Shown: positions 10,802 through 18,818 of the stretch, one piece after another | Layout of the letters: each line of letters starts with the position of its first letter | Numbering within the stretch: the first letter of the stretch is position 1 | IMG/VR virus record: IMGVR_UViG_3300027907_000063 | Location: 1-20,226 of that record | Origin: a virus | Reading direction: 5' to 3' (one strand) | Length of the DNA: 20,226 nt | Made by a program: the position numbers and the translations under genes | Notes under the pieces: generated by a model | Told to the model about the DNA's origin: nothing | Seen by the model: the letters and a program-made list of their open reading frames with translations, nothing else | The model's database searches: none

Positions 10802-12226
10802 ATGGATCCCATCACAACCGCGGTCACTGGCGGCGAGCAGCCGTCGGTGGACGTGGCGACGGCGATCGGAACCGCTGCGAAGCGGCTCGACGAGATCGCC
10901 GACGAGATGGCCAAGGCCAAGGGCGTCGACAACGCCCGGTTTGCTGAGCTCAAGGCAGAGCAGGACGCCCAGGCGTCCACCCTGTCCGAGCTCAAGACGA
11001 AGGCCGATGAGGACCGGCGCGAGTCGGAGCTCAAGGGTGCCATCGACGCTGCCGCCGAGTGGCGACAGTTCGCCAACGACTTCCGCGCCCCGTCGAAGGC
11101 CGGCTTCATCGCCGGTGGTGGCCCGTCTGCGAAGAAGGGCTACACGAAGGGCGACTTCCTGTTCGCCGTCCACGAGGCCAACTCGCGGGACGCGGAGCGG
11201 CAGGCCGTCGGCAAGGCGCTCCTCGCCGACCTCAACAAGGCCGCGCCGACCTACGGCATGGACGCCAAGGCGTTCCTGTCCGAGGAGAGCTGGGGCAAGG
11301 CAACGCTCGGCACGACCGACGCGACGGGTGGCTGGATCATCCCGAACGCGATCGTGGACGAGTTCATCACCCCGGCAGCGGTCTCGAACATCTACCGCAC
11401 GATCATGACCGTCGTCCCCGGCGTCACGGCGACAGCGGTCGACATCCCGTTCCGCAACGCGGCGCGGACCTCGGCTGTGATCGCCGCTGCCGGCGACACC
11501 AAGGAGAACCTGTCGCTGGCCTACCAGGGCTACACGGCGACGATGTACACCTTGGCCCGCATCTACGACGTCGCCAACCAGTTCCTCCGCTCCTCACGGG
11601 GCGCGGCGGAAGCGGACGTTCTCCAGGAGCTGGCCGCGGCGTTCGCGGCGGGCGAGTCGGACTACATCCGCGAGGGCACGGGCACGAGCCAGCCGTTCGG
11701 CTACACGCCGGCGCTGACCAACGGCCCGTCGACGTTCACCTCGACGTTCTCGTCACCGTCGGACTCGACGGTGGCAGGTTCCATCGCAGCGGCCATCTCG
11801 GTCGCGGCTGGTGCCCTCGCCGGTCGTGGCGTGGTCCCGACGGCAGCCGTCCTCTCGGCGACCGCCTACTGGAACATGCTCCGACAGGGCTCCGACTCAG
11901 CGGGCTTCTGGTTCGCCACGCAGGAGCGCAATCCGGCCAGCGTTCGCCCCGGCACGCTGGTCAGCCCGTTCGGCATCCCCGTCTACGCAGACGCGGCGTC
12001 GAACCTCAAGGGCACCTCGACCGTCATCGACAACCTCGTCGTGGCCGACTGGAAGAAGTTCAAGGTGTACTTCGGCCAGAGCTACCGCGTCGACTCGTCA
12101 GACGAGGCGGGAACCCGCTGGGACACCAACCTCACCGGCTTCCGCGGTGAGGAGGAGATGGGCTTCGACGCACGCCCTGCGGTGTACGCCGGCTACGCCC
12201 AGCTCTGCACCGACGTCATCCCGTAA
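10802..12226 (+). CDS. Major capsid protein, HK97 fold
   Basis: The 474-residue product starts at ATG 10802, 5 bases after the protease stop. Residues about 20-90 are a charged coiled coil (KRLDEIADEMAKAKG, then ELKTKADEDRRE), the delta or scaffold domain usually removed by the protease. The mature part follows, with LGTTDATGGWIIPNAIVDEF at 169-188, the start of the shell domain in many HK97-type capsids. Then come PFRN, the strand-helix TATMYTLARIYDVANQFLRS at 245-264, the spine-like helix DVLQELAAAFAAGESDYI and the typical GTGTSQPFGYTPAL. Late motifs WFATQERNPASV and GIPVYAD also fit. A 20-residue part recurs in the membrane protein at 4533-4775. A hairpin after the gene may limit read-through to the sugar cassette. 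Confidence 0.92.
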   Translation: MDPITTAVTGGEQPSVDVATAIGTAAKRLDEIADEMAKAKGVDNARFAELKAEQDAQASTLSELKTKADEDRRESELKGAIDAAAEWRQFANDFRAPSKAGFIAGGGPSAKKGYTKGDFLFAVHEANSRDAERQAVGKALLADLNKAAPTYGMDAKAFLSEESWGKATLGTTDATGGWIIPNAIVDEFITPAAVSNIYRTIMTVVPGVTATAVDIPFRNAARTSAVIAAAGDTKENLSLAYQGYTATMYTLARIYDVANQFLRSSRGAAEADVLQELAAAFAAGESDYIREGTGTSQPFGYTPALTNGPSTFTSTFSSPSDSTVAGSIAAAISVAAGALAGRGVVPTAAVLSATAYWNMLRQGSDSAGFWFATQERNPASVRPGTLVSPFGIPVYADAASNLKGTSTVIDNLVVADWKKFKVYFGQSYRVDSSDEAGTRWDTNLTGFRGEEEMGFDARPAVYAGYAQLCTDVIP

Positions 12227-12233
12227 AGCAGTC

Positions 12234-12268
12234 GTGGGGCCGGTTACCGGAGCTGGGACCGGCCCCAC
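12234..12268 (+). terminator. Perfect 11-bp hairpin after the capsid gene
   Basis: GTGGGGCCGGT (12234-12244) and ACCGGCCCCAC (12258-12268) are exact reverse complements with a 13-base loop, beginning 7 bases after the capsid stop. No T-tract follows, as is common in high-GC genomes. A strong ribosome binding site (AGGAGGT, 12277-12283) comes next. It may act as a partial terminator or as an mRNA 3'-end stabiliser that raises capsid output over downstream genes. Confidence 0.7.
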
Positions 12269-12287: not shown

Positions 12288-12474
12288 ATGGCAACGAAGT
12301 CCAAGAGCCTGAAAGAAGGCCGTGGAGGCTGAGGTCGACAAGGCCGCCGACGAGGCGGAGAACGAGCAGACCATCGACCAAGGCCCCGAGGAAGCGGAAG
12401 AGAACGTCCAGGATCTGCCGACCAACGCGCGCAGTCACCTGGTAGGGGATCACCGCGTTGCTGACCGAGGTTGA
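12288..12474 (+). CDS. Small acidic protein after the capsid, split by a +1 frame break
   Basis: AGGAGGT lies 5 bases before ATG 12288, an excellent initiation site, yet the direct frame stops after 14 codons at TGA 12330-12332. Moving +1 at CTG AAA GAA (12309-12317) continues into an open, highly charged frame to TGA 12472-12474. The result is about 61 residues: MATKSKSLK, then KAVEAEVDKAADEAENEQ, and further Glu-rich sequence. The downstream part is biased towards Glu, Ala and Asp, unlike random frame. Position after the capsid would suit a decoration, scaffold-like or assembly factor, but no family is recognised. A one-base insertion, a sequencing error or programmed +1 slippage on AAA-G could explain it. 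It overlaps the methyltransferase start by 17 bases. Confidence 0.5.
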
Positions 12475-13153
12475 CGACTTCCGCACCCGCGACGGGACGA
12501 CGGACGCGAGCGCCGTCTACGCACTGGCCGCTGACGAGTACCGACTTTCCCATCGTCGGTTCAGTGGCTGGGCGATTGACGTCGGGGCGCACATCGGGAC
12601 GGTGGCGATCAGCCTTGCCCGCCAGAACCCCGGGCTCCGGGTGATCGCGGTCGAGGCCGTGCCGGAGAACGCCGACCTCCTCGAGCACAACGTGGACGTG
12701 GCGCGCCTGAGAGAGCGGGTGAGTGTGGTCAGGGCATGGGCGGGCAGCCCGAACGACCTGACCGGCGTCTGCCACTACGGCTACCGTCACCGCGAGTCGG
12801 AGAACGACGGTTACGTCCGGGCGCACCGCTACGTTGGCGGGACCTTCGGCGACACCGGCGACCCGGAGTTCAGCCTCGAGCTCCCGGCGATCTCGCTCGA
12901 TAGCCTCATGGCGAAGTACAGCATCGATGACGTGGCGCTCATCAAGATCGACTGCGAGGGCTGCGAATGGGCCTTCCTCGACTCGCCTAGCATCGGACGG
13001 GTGGAGACGATCGTTGGCGAGTACCACGGCGGGCTGTCCGGCCAAGAGGCACCGCAGGTCCGGCTGCTCGATCTCCTCGGTGCCACGCATACCGTCCACT
13101 TCTGGAACCCTGACGAGACGGTGATCGGGTTGTTCGAGGCGCAGCGAGCATGA
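12458..13153 (+). CDS. FkbM-type SAM-dependent methyltransferase, copy 1
   Basis: TTG 12458 is the likely start: the frame has a stop at 12443, no ATG precedes the conserved domain, and a GTAGGGG-like site lies upstream. The 231-residue product has the Rossmann SAM site AIDVGAHIGTVAISLA (39-54), the ribose-binding acid in IAVEAVPENADLL (Glu66) and the family motif IKIDCEGCEW (162-171). FkbM enzymes methylate hydroxyl groups, often on sugars of surface glycans. Its best relative in view is the second copy at 14489, with the same motif DCEGCE. The ATGA overlap with the following glycosyltransferase points to joint action on a glycan. The N-terminus before residue 30 is not conserved between copies. 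Confidence 0.8.
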   Translation: MLTEVDDFRTRDGTTDASAVYALAADEYRLSHRRFSGWAIDVGAHIGTVAISLARQNPGLRVIAVEAVPENADLLEHNVDVARLRERVSVVRAWAGSPNDLTGVCHYGYRHRESENDGYVRAHRYVGGTFGDTGDPEFSLELPAISLDSLMAKYSIDDVALIKIDCEGCEWAFLDSPSIGRVETIVGEYHGGLSGQEAPQVRLLDLLGATHTVHFWNPDETVIGLFEAQRA

Positions 13154-14250
13154 CGAACCTGCTGATCCTGTCGAGCCACTCGATCCTGGAGTACGACGAC
13201 CTTCGGCTGTTCCACCGTCTCGGGTACGACGTGTTCATGCCCGGCGGCTACTCCAATCCATCGAAGCCCGGCGAGACGATGCGCCCCGCGCTGCCAGAGG
13301 TGCCGTACCGTGCTGAGCTCGACGACCTCTGCCAGGAGCAGCGGGAGCGCCACGCGGGCCAGCCGACCGACCACGGCATCATCGACTGGGCCAAGGCCGA
13401 TCTCCACCCGATGCTCATCGACTGGGCCGACATCATCATGGTCAACTGCTTCCCGGAGTCGTGGATCGGGGGCAACTGGAACCGGATCCGCGAGAAGCGG
13501 GTCATCTGGCGGACGATCGGCCAGTCCAGCCCCCTGACCGAGCACGAGATGAAGCGCTTCGAGGGCTTGGAGATCGTCCGCTATTCGCCCGCCGAGAAGC
13601 GGGCCTTCGAGCCGCTCGGCGTGTTCGCCGGCGAGGACGCGATGATCCGGTTCGGCAAGGACGCCGACGACTATGGGCCGTGGACCGGGACGATCAACCG
13701 CATCGGCAACGTCAGCCAGAACCTCGACGTTCGCGGTGACCACTGCGGCCTTGACTTCTGGCGCGAAGCGACGGCAGGGCTCCCGACGAAGCCTGCCGGC
13801 CTCGGCTCCGAGCGCCTGCCGAACGGCACCGGGACGCTGACCTTCGATATGCTCCGCGACTACTATCGCCGCATCCGCTGTCTGCTGTATATGGGCACGC
13901 AGCCGGCGTCCTACACGCTCTCGCTCATGGAGGCGATGCTGACCGGGACGCCGACCCTCTCGATCGGTCCTGACGGGATGTGGATGCCGCGCCTCTTCGA
14001 AGGTCACGAGCTCGCGCCGTGGACGGCCCAGGACGCCGCGTCAGCGCGAGTCTGGTGTCAGGCGACGCTGGCGCACGACCCGGACGCTGTTGGCGATACC
14101 GGCGTGTCTCCGCGCGAGGAAAGCGAGCACATCCGAAAGCGCGGCATCGAGTTGTTCAGCTACGACGTGGTTGGCCCGCAGTGGGTCGACTTCCTGGGGT
14201 TCCCGTCGACGCAGAGCGTCGAGGCGCGGCTCATGGGATCGGCGGCGTGA
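13150..14250 (+). CDS. Glycosyltransferase-like protein 1 (GT-B type)
   Basis: ATG 13150 overlaps the methyltransferase stop. The 366-residue protein starts with a Rossmann-like strand and loop (NLLILSSHSILEYDDLRLFH, then GYDVFMPGG) and a second acceptor-side element (DWADIIMVNCFPESW, 91-105). The C-terminal half has the nucleotide-sugar side pattern SYTLSLMEAMLTGTPTLSIG (254-273), equivalent to the E-A-x-x-x-G-x-P region of GT-B enzymes. It probably transfers a sugar to a virion or host surface component. The sugar donor cannot be told. Overall layout recalls the second glycosyltransferase (15205-16266), which also follows an FkbM gene. Confidence 0.65.
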   Translation: MTNLLILSSHSILEYDDLRLFHRLGYDVFMPGGYSNPSKPGETMRPALPEVPYRAELDDLCQEQRERHAGQPTDHGIIDWAKADLHPMLIDWADIIMVNCFPESWIGGNWNRIREKRVIWRTIGQSSPLTEHEMKRFEGLEIVRYSPAEKRAFEPLGVFAGEDAMIRFGKDADDYGPWTGTINRIGNVSQNLDVRGDHCGLDFWREATAGLPTKPAGLGSERLPNGTGTLTFDMLRDYYRRIRCLLYMGTQPASYTLSLMEAMLTGTPTLSIGPDGMWMPRLFEGHELAPWTAQDAASARVWCQATLAHDPDAVGDTGVSPREESEHIRKRGIELFSYDVVGPQWVDFLGFPSTQSVEARLMGSAA

Positions 14251-14489
14251 ACCCCATTCGCGCTAGGTGGAACCCACCCGACAGCGACTACGGCTATTCG
14301 GTCCTGCTGCTTGAGGTGCGTCACGACAATCTCGCGGCCCTCATCTGCCTCCAAGTGACCGTGCCGAACGTGCCTTGGCCAGACCTCGTGGGCTTTGATA
14401 GCGAACATCGGACTCTGGCGGCTGGTACGACGTTTTGGGTAGCCCGTGAGTCGGTGCTCGTGGATGTGCGCGAGAGGGTGGCCGTCTGA
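14247..14489 (+). CDS. Small hypothetical protein in the sugar cassette (80 aa)
   Basis: GTG 14247 overlaps the stop of glycosyltransferase 1 (GTGA), and its TGA 14487-14489 overlaps the next ATG (TGATG). The product is mainly alternating beta-type sequence (YGYSVLLLEVRHDN, LICLQVTVPN, TTFWVARESVLVDVRERVAV), without membrane helix or known motif. Codons around it are like those of its neighbours. A small beta domain acting as adaptor for the glycan enzymes is possible, but only position suggests it. Confidence 0.55.
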   Translation: MNPIRARWNPPDSDYGYSVLLLEVRHDNLAALICLQVTVPNVPWPDLVGFDSEHRTLAAGTTFWVARESVLVDVRERVAV

Positions 14490-15208
14490 TGTACGAGATC
14501 CTCGAGGGCAACTGGCAGACGCCCGGCGGGCATACCGCGCACTTCCGCTACCGCGCCGACACGAACGACTGGAACACGATCAGCGCCTGTCTCGTCAACG
14601 CCCTGACCGGCTCTGATGGTGACGAGTATCACCTACCGCAGGGATTGTCAGGGTGGGCGCTGGACCTCGGCGCGCACATCGGCGCGGTGACCGTGGGCCT
14701 TGCGCTGGACAACCCCGATCTACGGGTGGTGGCCATCGAGGCGGTGCCCGCCAACGTCACGCTGCTGCGGGCGAACATCGCGCTCAACGGCCTCGAGGAT
14801 CGCTGCACGGTCATGGCCGGCGCAGCGTGGTCGTCCGGTCGCAGCACCACCCGCATCGAGTACGGCTACGAAGGCACCGAGACGGCCACCCACAACGCCT
14901 TCATCGGGTCCGTCAGCCCGTGGCTGGAGAAGGTCGAGCGCCAGTACACCAACGTCCCCACCGTGACGCTGCGCCAGGCGCTCGCCGCTACGGATGGTAC
15001 GGGCTTCGTCTGGGTCAAGTCCGATTGCGAAGGCTGCGAGCATCGTTTCCTCAAAGGCCCCGGCCTCGCCAAGGTCGGCCAGATCGAGGGTGAGTGGCAC
15101 CGCCGCGACGGCAGCCCGGAGGCGTTCGCGGCGCAACTTGCCAAGACGCACGACGTCCAGTGGACCGAGGGCATCGGTGGCGGACCGTTTACGGCGGTAC
15201 GGCGATGA
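14489..15208 (+). CDS. FkbM-type SAM-dependent methyltransferase, copy 2
   Basis: ATG 14489 is translationally coupled. Over 239 residues it shows ALDLGAHIGAVTVGLAL (57-73) for SAM binding, VAIEAVPANVTLL (81-93) with the acidic residue, and VKSDCEGCEHRFLKG (176-190). These blocks match copy 1 almost position by position, for example GAHIG, IEAVP or VEAVP, and DCEGCE, so the two are paralogs. The N-terminal and central parts differ, which suggests different acceptor sugars or hydroxyl positions. It is followed by a second glycosyltransferase with an ATGA overlap, repeating the gene order of the first pair. Confidence 0.8.
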   Translation: MYEILEGNWQTPGGHTAHFRYRADTNDWNTISACLVNALTGSDGDEYHLPQGLSGWALDLGAHIGAVTVGLALDNPDLRVVAIEAVPANVTLLRANIALNGLEDRCTVMAGAAWSSGRSTTRIEYGYEGTETATHNAFIGSVSPWLEKVERQYTNVPTVTLRQALAATDGTGFVWVKSDCEGCEHRFLKGPGLAKVGQIEGEWHRRDGSPEAFAAQLAKTHDVQWTEGIGGGPFTAVRR

Positions 15209-16266
15209 TCCGCGTCCTGACCGACGGCAGCCACCACGCCGACCTGTACGAGTCGCTGGTGATGCTCTTCGAGGATCGCTTCGGCTGGGAGCTCTACCGC
15301 CCGTCGGGGATGGAGTATTGGGACGAGGGCTTCTGGAACTGGGAGCGGCACATGCCCCACGGCGAACCCGTGGCCCGGCAGTACCTCGAACGCTGGGGTT
15401 CGGACCGCGACATGGGCGACTTCTGGGAGCGTGACGATCACGTCCACCCCGGCCGCGTCCTGAAGTCCTTGACGCTGCAACAGGTCCGCGATCTGCGGCC
15501 CGACGTCATCATCGCCACGCTTGCCGAGAACGAGGAGGGCTTGCACCGGCTGGCGAAGGAGGTCGGGGCGAAGTTCGGCATCCAGCTCGGCAATCAGGGC
15601 ACCGTGAACCGCTACGACCTCGCGGACTTCAGCCTGATCTCAACGTCACGGGACGGCTACCCCTGGACGCCGTATGTCATCTACCGGCAGGAGTTCAGTC
15701 TCACCGACTTCCGCTTCGAGTACCCGCCGACCGACCGGACCTACGTTGGGACGTGGGTCCAGGTCCTGCCCTCGGATGAGACGGAGTACAACCGCTTCCT
15801 CGCCCTCGCCCGGGATCTCCCCGAGCTCCGGCTCCGCTACCACGGCCACGTCGGACAGGTTGATGACTATTGGGGCGGGAACGTTGCAACCACGCGCGAG
15901 GTGGCGGCGCAGATGCGCTCCGCCGGCGTGGGACTGCACTTCAAGCGCTGGTCCGACGGCTACGGTCACGTCATCCATAACCTCTTCGCAACGGGCAAGC
16001 CGGTCGTTGCAACGGCGAGCTACTACGAAGACAAGCTCGCGGGGCCGCTCTTCGTCGAGGGCGTTACGTCGTTCGATGTCCAGCGCCACACCCATCAGGA
16101 GGCGGTCGACTTCATCCGCCGGCTCTCGGTCGATGACGACCTCCACCAGCGGATGTCGGAAGCCTCCCACGCTCGCTTCAACGAGATCGTGAACTTCGAC
16201 GCCGAGGCGAGCGAGATCAAGTTCATGCTCGACAACGTGCTCAGCGATCGAGCGGTGGCGGCGTGA
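15205..16266 (+). CDS. Glycosyltransferase-like protein 2 (GT-B type)
   Basis: ATG 15205 is chosen over the earlier in-frame start because of the ATGA overlap and because the upstream extension would be Arg-rich shadow sequence. The 353-residue product begins with MIRVLTDGSHHADLYESLVM and a sequence of the form FGWELYRPSG, comparable to GYDVFMPGG in glycosyltransferase 1. The C-terminal nucleotide-sugar side contains WSDGYGHVIHNLFATGKPVV (249-268), the usual G-x-x-x-x-x-x-x-A-x-G-x-P pattern of GT-B enzymes, and GPLFVEG. Two central segments (LRPDVIIATLAENEEGL and VGTWVQVLPSDETEYNRFL) fit domain cores. Donor and acceptor are unknown. Confidence 0.65.
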   Translation: MIRVLTDGSHHADLYESLVMLFEDRFGWELYRPSGMEYWDEGFWNWERHMPHGEPVARQYLERWGSDRDMGDFWERDDHVHPGRVLKSLTLQQVRDLRPDVIIATLAENEEGLHRLAKEVGAKFGIQLGNQGTVNRYDLADFSLISTSRDGYPWTPYVIYRQEFSLTDFRFEYPPTDRTYVGTWVQVLPSDETEYNRFLALARDLPELRLRYHGHVGQVDDYWGGNVATTREVAAQMRSAGVGLHFKRWSDGYGHVIHNLFATGKPVVATASYYEDKLAGPLFVEGVTSFDVQRHTHQEAVDFIRRLSVDDDLHQRMSEASHARFNEIVNFDAEASEIKFMLDNVLSDRAVAA

Positions 16267-16427
16267 TTGACTGGTGCGGTATCCTCGCCTCGGATGTCGG
16301 TTCAAATCCGGCCCGTAGGTTCGTCCAGTTGGGGCGACCCCACGAAGTAGCTCAGGGCCTCCGGGCTCAGGTAGAGCAACCCCGACAAGCCGCTGCGAAA
16401 GCAGAAAAGGCGGGGGCGCGCCCGTGA
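16263..16427 (+). CDS. Small ORF with tRNA-like DNA (54 aa), uncertain
   Basis: GTG 16263 overlaps the stop of glycosyltransferase 2 (GTGA), and TGA 16425-16427 overlaps GTG 16424 of the next gene, so the ORF exactly fills what otherwise seems a 157-base gap. The peptide starts MIDWCGILASDVGSNPARRF and ends in an Ala/Lys/Glu helix (RQAAAKAEKAGARP). However, the strings VGSNP and VAQ...VEQ are what translated tRNA T-arms and D-arms give, and such signatures are present in the DNA. Coding is favoured by perfect coupling at both ends; a tRNA-derived spacer is the alternative. Confidence 0.4.
   Translation: MIDWCGILASDVGSNPARRFVQLGRPHEVAQGLRAQVEQPRQAAAKAEKAGARP
16296..16378 (+). other. tRNA-like signatures in swapped order
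   Basis: GTCGG TTCAAAT CCGGC (16296-16312) is a complete T-arm with canonical loop. Downstream, TAGCTCAGG (16348-16356) and TAGAGCA (16372-16378) are the two sides of a canonical D-arm, split by a 15-base insert that repeats GCTCAGG. The T-arm therefore precedes the D-arm. A small hairpin (TGGGG/CCCCA, 16330-16342) lies between them. I could not build matching acceptor or anticodon stems, so no functional tRNA is called. Confidence 0.35.
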
Positions 16428-17680
16428 GGATTCAGTTTTGGGGAGATTTGGCCGGCACCGGCTTCGGAACGGTCACCCGTGACCTCGGCATCGCGCTCCT
16501 CAACGCCGGCCACGACGTGCGGTTCGTCAGCCAGAACGACCTGGAGAACCTCGAAGAGCCGTTCTTGTCGCGGACCTTCGAAGTTACCCCCGAGCTCGTC
16601 GACCAGGACGTGGCGATGGTCCTCGGCGAGAAGTCGTCGCTGTCGCTGTCGGTCGAAGGCATCCTGAAGCTGATCCGCGGCGAGCTCTGGCAGGACGGCT
16701 GGCGTCCCGAGGCGGCGATCGTCCTCGGTGACTTCGTGAACGTCCGGCGGATGGTCATGTCCGACGCCGAGACCGCATCGGCGTTCGCCTCGCTGCCGAC
16801 CTACCACTACGTCCCGATCGAAGGCGTGGACCTCCCGCCGTCTTGGCTTGGCCTGTGGCAGATCCTCCACCCGATCGCCATGAGCGAGTTCGGCGCGGAC
16901 CAGATCGAGCGCGTCATCGGCAGGCGGCCGCCGGTCGTCTACCACGGCGTCGACACCGAGCAGTTCCGGCCCGTCTCACCTGAGAAGCCGCTGTACCTCG
17001 AGACCGAGAGCGGCACGATCAAGCTCCGCACGAAGGCCGAGTGCAAGCGCTTCTTTGGGTCCGATCCCTCGCAGCCGTGGATCCTGCGAACGGACAGGTT
17101 CATGCCCCGCAAGCGGTACGCCTCATTCCTGCGGTCACTGGCTCCGGTCCTGGAGGCCCGGCCGGACGTGAAGCTCGTCATCCACTGCCGCTCGACCGAC
17201 GAGGGCGGGCACCTCTACGACCTGTTCACCAAGTACCCGTCGCACATCGCCCGGCGAATGCTCGTCACCGGCTTCCACGACAAGATGGGCGGCGCGCCGC
17301 GGGACATCCTGACGGCGCTGTACAACGGTGCCGACGTGTACGCCTCCAACTCCGCAGAGGGCTTCGGGCTGACGATCGCCGAGGCTCTGGCGTGCGGCGT
17401 GCCCGCCGTGGGCATGGATTACTCGGCGGTCACTGAAGTCATCGGGCCGGCTGGCCTGCTTGCGCCGGTCGACCGGCTCGATGACAACGAATACGACCAC
17501 GCTTGGGCGACGGTCAACGAGGCAGCGTTCGGCCACCAGGTCGGGGCCCTCCTCGATGACGAGCTGCGCCGACGCTCGCTCGGTCGGAAGGGCGTTCACC
17601 ACGTCCGCGAAAACTTCTCCTGGAAGCGGGCAGCGCAGCAGTTCGCGCAGGCGATGGGGCAGATGGAGGCCGTGGCATGA
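16424..17680 (+). CDS. GT4-family glycosyltransferase
   Basis: The 418-residue product starts at GTG 16424 (MRIQFWGDLAGTGFGTVTRD), with an N-terminal Rossmann domain whose Gly-rich loop GTGFG binds the acceptor. The C-terminal domain has the RTDRFMPRKR donor-phosphate segment (222-231), LVIHCRSTDEGG (251-262) and the EX7E motif SAEGFGLTIAEALACGVPAV (310-329; Glu312 and Glu320). A strand of the form VVYHGVDTEQFRPV at 171-184 is also diagnostic for GT4. It is the clearest of the three glycosyltransferases in the cassette. Enzymes of this type add hexoses from nucleotide sugars. Its ATGA overlap with the head-tail connector gene ties sugar transfer to the virion assembly operon. Confidence 0.85.
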   Translation: MRIQFWGDLAGTGFGTVTRDLGIALLNAGHDVRFVSQNDLENLEEPFLSRTFEVTPELVDQDVAMVLGEKSSLSLSVEGILKLIRGELWQDGWRPEAAIVLGDFVNVRRMVMSDAETASAFASLPTYHYVPIEGVDLPPSWLGLWQILHPIAMSEFGADQIERVIGRRPPVVYHGVDTEQFRPVSPEKPLYLETESGTIKLRTKAECKRFFGSDPSQPWILRTDRFMPRKRYASFLRSLAPVLEARPDVKLVIHCRSTDEGGHLYDLFTKYPSHIARRMLVTGFHDKMGGAPRDILTALYNGADVYASNSAEGFGLTIAEALACGVPAVGMDYSAVTEVIGPAGLLAPVDRLDDNEYDHAWATVNEAAFGHQVGALLDDELRRRSLGRKGVHHVRENFSWKRAAQQFAQAMGQMEAVA

Positions 17681-18354
17681 CCATGTTCGTGACTGCGGCG
17701 TCCGTCCGCGAGTACCTCGCCCTGAACTCCACGCCGTCGGACTCCAAGTACAGCGACGCCACCATCGGGTCGAACATCCGGTCCGCCACGAACTCGCTCG
17801 AGCGCCACACCGGACGGCGCTTCGAGGATGTCACGGCGACGCTGAAGTTCACGACCAACGGCGCGGCGTTCGTGTCCATCCCCGGGCTGCGGACGGCAAG
17901 CTCGGTGACCCTCCAGTCCTCGAGCCTCACAGCCGACTCGACGTACTGGCTCATCCCTGACAGCCAGCAGACCGGCGTCTACACCGGACTCCAGCTCCGG
18001 GCATGGGGCACCGGCAACCGGGGCGGGCCGTGGTGGCTGTCCAACCCCGAGTGGTTTGATCGCAACCTCGACAGCCCGTGGAACCCGGCGAACATGGCCG
18101 GCGGAGGGGCGACGAGCCTGCCCAATGACCTCGTGGTCGCTGGCGACTGGGGCTACACCGAAGAGCTCATGCCGGAGTCTGTCCGCCACGCCGTCAAGGT
18201 TCTCGCGGCGTACTACACGAAGCGGCCCGACGCCATCCTGTCGGGCGGGATCACGACGCCGGACGGGAACACGTTCGACCTGACCCGCTATCCGGTCGAG
18301 GTCCAGGACTTCATCCGTGAGTGGAAGGTCGGCCCGGAGGTGACCGGGCTGTGA
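17677..18354 (+). CDS. Head-tail connector protein
   Basis: ATG 17677 overlaps the glycosyltransferase stop; ATG 17683 is an alternative two codons on. The N-terminal part has the helical connector pattern (TAASVREYLALNSTPSDSKY, then a helix ending NSLERHTGRRF), in which the H-T-G-R-x-F segment is frequent in gp6-like adaptors. A beta domain follows (FVSIPGLRTASSVTL). The C-terminal helix VRHAVKVLAAYYTKRPDAIL is also characteristic. With 225 residues it is longer than minimal adaptors because of a Gly/Trp-rich insert at about 105-145. It would bind below the portal and close the filled head. Confidence 0.75.
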   Translation: MTMFVTAASVREYLALNSTPSDSKYSDATIGSNIRSATNSLERHTGRRFEDVTATLKFTTNGAAFVSIPGLRTASSVTLQSSSLTADSTYWLIPDSQQTGVYTGLQLRAWGTGNRGGPWWLSNPEWFDRNLDSPWNPANMAGGGATSLPNDLVVAGDWGYTEELMPESVRHAVKVLAAYYTKRPDAILSGGITTPDGNTFDLTRYPVEVQDFIREWKVGPEVTGL

Positions 18355-18818
18355 GCTTCTACCTCCAGGGTGGTCCGCAGCTCCAGCGTCGCCTGACCGC
18401 GCTACGGGAGGGGCAGAAGGACATTCTGCGTAACGTGGGACTCGCGGCGGTTCGCGAGGCCAAGATCCTCGTGCCTCGACGGACGGGCAACCTTGGGCGA
18501 ACGATCCGCGTTGGGGGATTGACCGACAGCTACGTCGAAGTCCGGGCCGGTGGGACTTCCGTTGTCGGTTACGCTGCCTACGTGGAGTTCGGCACCCGCG
18601 CACACTTGATCGTTCCCCGAACCAAGTCGATCCTCGCGTGGGGCGGATCCCGGACGCTCGGTGGGCGTCTGCGGAAGGGCAGTCGCGCGACGATCTTCGC
18701 TCGCCGCGTCAACCACCCCGGCACCAAACCAAAGCCGTTCCTGATCCCCGGCATCGAGAAAGCCATCCGCATGGTCGGTCTGTCTGATCTGGTTCGTCGC
18801 TGGAATGGGGCCGCCTGA
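18351..18818 (+). CDS. HK97 gp10-like neck/tail-completion protein
   Basis: GTG 18351 is selected for its GTGA overlap; the longer in-frame reading extends into the connector gene. The 155-residue product has the family's elements: an N-terminal helix (GPQLQRRLTALREGQKDILR), KILVPRRTGNLGRTI (the P-x-x-T-G-x-L motif), a strand with VVGYAAYVEFGTRAH, and near the C-terminus KPKPFLIPGIEKAI. These are typical of HK97 gp10 and related neck or tail-completion proteins. It sits between the connector and the tail terminator, as expected. Confidence 0.82.
   Translation: MSFYLQGGPQLQRRLTALREGQKDILRNVGLAAVREAKILVPRRTGNLGRTIRVGGLTDSYVEVRAGGTSVVGYAAYVEFGTRAHLIVPRTKSILAWGGSRTLGGRLRKGSRATIFARRVNHPGTKPKPFLIPGIEKAIRMVGLSDLVRRWNGAA

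Follow-up and report, generated by a model that had tools for sequence, protein, structure and literature searches.

The virus record IMGVR_UViG_3300027907_000063 of IMG/VR (20,226 bases, G+C 63-70%), analysed here in its entirety and called the window below, carries a cassette of glycosyltransferase (GT) and methyltransferase (MT) genes in the slot between the genes for its major capsid protein (MCP) and its head-tail adaptor, in the order MT1, GT1, an 80-residue open reading frame (ORF), MT2, GT2, a 54-residue ORF and GT3. Comparison with related loci leads us to favour, with reasonable though not high confidence, the reading of this slot as a virion-glycosylation locus made of a fixed and a variable part. 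The locus would assemble a methylated glycan, its acceptor being a protein of the virion and probably that of the capsid, a target and a chemistry that we infer from the enzymes and their setting.

Profiles of the terminase, portal, protease-like protein, MCP, adaptor, Neck1, GT1, GT2, GT3 and MT were searched against 127 loci and the window, and occupancy of the slot was counted only in those IMG/VR loci that had been fetched with the MCP alone, so that this sample was not picked for glycosyltransferases. GT3 lies between MCP and adaptor in 35 of the 35 MCP-fetched loci that extend to the adaptor, while 16 others stop with no adaptor detected. The 35 loci form 26 clusters when grouped at 70% MCP identity, some pairs being only 30% identical, and since the slot is filled in every relative that can be checked, the arrangement is far beyond chance. 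A first-pass annotation of this DNA, which described a glycan-building cassette inside the head operon, had suggested comparing phages with and without it. Among the loci compared, no close relative lacks GT3 and it is the other enzymes that are swapped, a result that goes beyond the picture drawn in that annotation and points to a locus with a fixed and a variable component.

Over 29 full loci, pairwise identities are correlated between MCP and adaptor (0.61), MCP and GT3 (0.59) and adaptor and GT3 (0.66), against 0.20 for MCP and GT1 and 0.16 for MCP and GT2. GT3 is thus inherited together with the head genes and diverges in step with MCP and adaptor. It is also apparently under firm selection, being better conserved on average (mean identity 50%) than either MCP (44%) or adaptor (43%). 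The remainder of the cassette behaves otherwise: one relative (L012) shares 71% identity with the window in GT2 and 40% in MCP, and another (L016) 64% in MCP and 37% in GT2. Slots that lack GT1 and GT2 contain other enzymes instead. Of the 89 unassigned slot ORFs from 26 loci, 17 match glycosyltransferases of family GT2 and five match NAD epimerases, and others match nucleotidyltransferases, FdtA, hexapeptide transferases, KASIII, SDR or methyltransferases. All this points to a fixed glycosyltransferase accompanied by a variable module that is swapped between phages. Genes for FabH-like KASIII and short-chain dehydrogenase occur within the slot of relatives (L056, 14130-15903; L072, 5397-7433), so that some members may have acyl chemistry or sugar chemistry of an unusual kind.

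The first-pass annotation had recognised two FkbM methyltransferases, three glycosyltransferases and two small ORFs in the cassette, all of which we recover on the plus strand. MT1 (12458-13153, with a TTG start) and MT2 (14489-15208) belong to the FkbM family PF05050, with 53.8 bits (3.3e-14) and 47.5 bits (2.9e-12) respectively against a cut-off of 22.7. They are paralogues with 34% identity, MT1 keeps its S-adenosylmethionine motif and its DCEG motif across relatives, and a putative function for both is the O-methylation of a sugar or a similar hydroxyl. GT3 (16424-17680) is a member of the GT4 family, lying above the Pfam cut-offs (PF13692, 49.5 bits and 6.9e-13 against a cut-off of 27; PF00534, 44.3 bits) and carrying an EX7E motif (E312-x7-E320) whose two glutamates are invariant in 15 alignment rows. 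For GT1 (13150-14250; 13-row alignment) the profile scans gave no Pfam or PHROG match, and GT2 (15205-16266) matched glycosyltransferase Pfam models only below cut-off (17.2 bits against 25). Structure prediction, which the annotation had also proposed, gave confident AlphaFold models of GT1 (pLDDT 89.8) and GT2 (pLDDT 90.7), and Foldseek matched these to GT-B enzymes over most of the protein length: GT1 best to the methylmannose polysaccharide mannosyltransferase 7qsg (4.6e-10), and also to BshA and PimA; GT2 best to PglA (2.1e-10), and also to HepE and MshA. The count of three glycosyltransferases is therefore correct, because both models match GT-B structures of the GT4 family, GT1 and GT2 being GT-B enzymes by predicted fold with membership of GT4 itself unproven. 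The likeness to GT4-family GT-B enzymes (BshA, PimA, PglA, 7qsg) thus holds for GT3 by sequence and for GT1 and GT2 by predicted fold, with the difference that GT1 falls in no Pfam family.

One structural neighbour of GT2 is the DNA alpha-glucosyltransferase 1y6f, and viruses are known to encode glycosyltransferases for DNA hypermodification (Pyle 2024, as cited in PMC12619734), so that the cassette might be thought to glycosylate modified bases of the phage DNA. We regard this as very improbable: the thymidylate synthase family (PF00303) is present in only one of 30 records, and FkbM O-methyltransferases, like the sugar-nucleotide enzymes that relatives carry, are more in keeping with a glycan. 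The Tet/JBP family (PF12851) matched none of the 30 records with a control that was silent too, and is not counted as absent.

The genes are tightly coupled by stop/start overlaps, as had been noted, every junction from MT1 to the adaptor being an overlap of 4 nucleotides (MT1/GT1, GT1/80-residue ORF, MT2/GT2, GT2/54-residue ORF, 54-residue ORF/GT3 and, with the ATGA already pointed out, GT3/adaptor) or of 1 nucleotide (80-residue ORF/MT2). Among relatives, GT3 and the adaptor overlap by 4 or 1 nucleotides in 42 of 54 loci, compared with 7 of 50 for portal and protease-like gene and 0 of 36 for MCP and MT; the choice of starts favours overlaps, though to the same extent for every gene pair. 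This coupling of GT3 to the adaptor and not to MCP would suit glycosylation of a connector, tail-tube or fibre protein instead of the capsid protein, and tail-tube glycans are reported for mycobacteriophages (PMC12619734 and PMC10877033). On the other hand, the overlap may merely set a low, connector-like level of the enzyme. One would moreover expect the adaptor to be a buried protein of low copy number, and we consider a target of this kind unlikely, while giving it more weight than any other alternative. In the reading that we prefer, virion glycosylation with the abundant capsid protein as the most likely acceptor, GT3 would attach a sugar to this protein or act nearest to it, and the variable module (here MT1, GT1, MT2 and GT2) would extend the glycan from host nucleotide sugars and O-methylate it, the methyl groups possibly capping the chain. 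We infer that there is glycosylation at all, on which protein it takes place, how the sugars are ordered, that methyl groups cap them and how the phage would benefit. As the module is swapped between phages, surface glycans would differ among lineages, as they do with bacterial O-antigen loci.

Phage-encoded modification of host glycans is well known, and the cassette enzymes could instead alter host surface glycans during infection or lysogeny, blocking superinfection or changing a receptor in the manner of seroconversion genes. Integrases in three of 30 related records indicate that some members may be temperate. Moreover, relatives of GT1 and GT2 also occur in large phages, at loci where this MCP was not detected. 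A scan with GT1 added a second clade, with the order MCP-MT-GT1-GT2-GT3-adaptor and an MCP recognisable only by profile (~1e-75), and it also revealed phages of 60-116 kilobases that carry GT1, and in several cases GT2 and MT, in loci with no detected homologue of this MCP. The large-phage loci with GT1 relatives (L182, L186, L188, L190, L195, L198 and L203) mostly have GT2, some have MT, and they include extra glycosyltransferases; neighbouring genes pooled from L186 and L198 match epimerase, glycosyltransferase, tail-fibre and virion-structural proteins, and those of L182 are DNA methyltransferases and HNH genes. Against a role at the host surface, the slot is locked between MCP and adaptor, with GT3 co-inherited with the head genes. 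A Gtr-type seroconversion cassette consists of a GtrA flippase and a membrane glycosyltransferase, whereas here GtrA (PF04138) was found in 0 of 34 records and hydropathy revealed no transmembrane segment in any cassette protein; lipid-linked initiating transferases (PF02397) were likewise detected in none of the 34 records, with positive controls in both searches. Phage heads assemble in the cytoplasm, and a glycan made there and linked to protein is on these results more likely than one anchored to lipid in the envelope. We judge the host-surface explanation improbable. The position of the cassette and the co-inheritance of GT3 with the head genes argue for a virion protein as the target.

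The first-pass annotation had likewise suggested an assembled, methyl-capped glycan on capsid or fibre that might mask the virion or alter adsorption. A virion-directed methylated glycan is indeed what the data support best, given the invariant slot, the inheritance of GT3 with the head genes and its overlap with the adaptor, the failure to detect lipid-linked or membrane machinery and the organisation of phage Corndog (see below); the choice of target protein, the O-methyl capping and a role in masking or adsorption are putative. Several points weigh against our reading as a whole. Glycosylation is predicted from genes, and the 35 filled slots are not 35 independent events, because the loci share ancestry. 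No conserved clear EX7E pair was seen in the alignments of GT1 or GT2, in which they differ from GT4-family enzymes and which makes their catalysis uncertain. By eye, the MCP has no obvious Ser/Thr-rich tail. Finally, the enzymes could belong to a late operon and yet act elsewhere, and there may be partner genes beyond the ends of the contigs, which are incomplete.

MCP is not coupled to MT1, and a strong RNA hairpin stands between them. In the window, a stem search and folding delimit a perfect, G+C-rich 11-bp hairpin at 12234-12268 on the plus strand, 7 nucleotides past the MCP stop (-30.3 kcal/mol, z -1.7). Post-MCP hairpins scoring at least 10 are present in 62% of 64 loci of the first clade and 67% of 18 loci of the second, compared with 4-5% of random windows from the same contigs, and perfect stems of at least 8 bp, rare downstream of GT3 and of the protease-like gene, never follow MT, GT1, GT2 or the adaptor. 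Stem sequences vary among loci, so it is the structure that is kept and not the sequence. For the second clade, the limits of a motif were set by hand in 14 loci (L140, L144-L148, L151, L154, L155, L157, L158, L162, L167 and L170). Its first helix measures 10-14 bp in all but one of them, L155 being the misfit, and the loop of this helix has GAGCGC or GCGAGC, to which two copies farther downstream are complementary. The second copy lies, in nine of these 14 loci, within the loop of a helix enclosing the Shine-Dalgarno sequence, and in all nine the start codon lies inside or just after that helix, whose strands covary (CACGG/CCGTG, CATAGG/CCTATG, GTAGG/CCTAC, CCATGG/CCATGG); for four other loci the script favoured pairing of the two copies with each other. 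The start codon at the motif is that of MT in 13 of 17 loci. Complementarity between loop and downstream sequence over both clades averages 4.58, against 3.70 in permuted pairs (standard deviation 0.11), a difference inflated by relatedness. Of these elements, the window clearly shows just the first hairpin. Rfam gave no match at gathering score for the post-MCP RNA in eight of the loci. Scans for sigma-70 promoters and U-tract terminators gave counts no higher than in shuffled sequence. We consider this conserved and covarying structured RNA a candidate new regulatory RNA. As the second-clade helix encloses the Shine-Dalgarno sequence and the first start codon of the cassette, enzyme output would follow RNA folding, and a plausible hypothesis is that it keeps the enzymes below the level of the capsid protein.

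The head region as a whole reads, on the plus strand, terminase small and large subunits, portal, a probable protease or scaffold gene, MCP, cassette, adaptor, a Neck1-like gene and tail genes, so that the cassette does lie, as annotated, between capsid and connector. In a record of only 20 kb, genes for lysis and lifestyle of this phage were not seen. The upstream flank is an HK97-type MCP (10802-12226; PF05065, 65.3 bits against a cut-off of 24.2; phrog_10, major head protein) and the downstream one the head-tail adaptor (17677-18354; phrog_442, 2e-13), followed by an HK97 gp10-like or Neck1 protein (18351-18818; PF04883 and phrog_5, scanned as 18321-18815). Just 3' of MCP, a small acidic ORF (12288-12474) has its reading frame broken near 12320, which may be a sequencing error or decay, the two being indistinguishable; ORFs with a similar start are found at this site in relatives such as L010, L020 and L023. 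For the 80-residue ORF (14247-14489), which overlaps both GT1 and MT2, the earliest set of related loci yielded no detectable homologue.

The 54-residue ORF (16263-16427) lies in tRNA-like DNA between GT2 and GT3. Within 16267-16423, a T-arm motif GGTTCAAATCC (16299) is followed by a D-arm motif TAGCTCAG...GGTAGAGC (16348), the reverse of the order in a tRNA, and the stretch has GTGA on either side. It was not found in the relatives examined, most of which join GT2 to GT3 directly, and it looks like an insertion. A permuted tRNA was considered on account of the inverted arms and rejected: ARAGORN was negative, on doubled sequence as well, and so were Rfam and the folding energy, and the acceptor and anticodon strands are mismatched by eye. 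A search of IMG/VR with the unusual D-arm matched only coding-like sequence. We judge the stretch to be tRNA-derived debris. Rfam matches to radC, Betaproteobacteria-1 and sR22 were all below gathering score.

Searches of cultured phages were nearly empty: megablast and most tblastn searches gave no match, and the only matches were weak glycosyltransferase ones, obtained with GT3 in two cyanophages, so that no isolate is at hand. MCP homologues were found in two of 400 Chloroflexota genomes, in one case beside host genes and an integrase on a small contig, which provides a lead, and only that, to a Chloroflexota host. A contig from a Chloroflexi metagenome-assembled genome (L018, 1-8695) carries the end of a cysteine desulfurase gene, MnmA, a tyrosine recombinase, a terminase-small-like gene and an MCP homologue, with no large terminase or portal between the last two; it may be a satellite-like element that carries a capsid gene, or else a prophage in decay.

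Few phages are reported to have glycosylated virions. We tentatively suggest, as a possibility that falls somewhat short of even chances, that this lineage has a "serotype locus" within its head operon: a glycosyltransferase that is obligatory, passes down along with the capsid and is coupled to the adaptor, a recombining glycan module, and a capsid boundary marked by an undescribed structured RNA. If this is true, virion glycosylation would here be a core and diversifying trait and not an occasional accessory, raising the question of what selects the variety of sugars on a phage particle. The lineage also supplies an enzyme family with no Pfam entry and a candidate regulatory RNA.

Among known systems, the glycosyltransferases of Che8 and other Cluster F1 mycobacteriophages reportedly modify capsid and tail tube (Freeman 2023, as cited by later papers). 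In Maravista, another Cluster F1 phage, the glycosyltransferases lie near the 3' end of the genome, whereas those of the window are set in the head operon, overlap the adaptor gene and are fixed in the lineage. Bacterial O-antigen and capsule loci offer an analogy, and only that, in that their flanks are fixed and enclose genes for glycosyltransferases and sugar nucleotides that can be exchanged; they differ in that GtrA-type and lipid-linked initiating transferases were sought here and not found. The nearest precedent in organisation is the mycobacteriophage Corndog, of Cluster O, where an O-methyltransferase and three glycosyltransferases (gp35-gp38) lie between portal and protease and for which the authors proposed capsid modification (PMC4351075). 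In both Corndog and the window, the virion structural operon includes an O-methyltransferase and glycosyltransferases, placed in the portal-protease slot in the former and in the MCP-adaptor slot in the latter, and tblastn with GT1, GT2, GT3 and MT2 gave no mycobacteriophage match. The organisation described here is thus new within the known phenomenon of phage virion glycosylation, and it is conserved across an uncultivated lineage.
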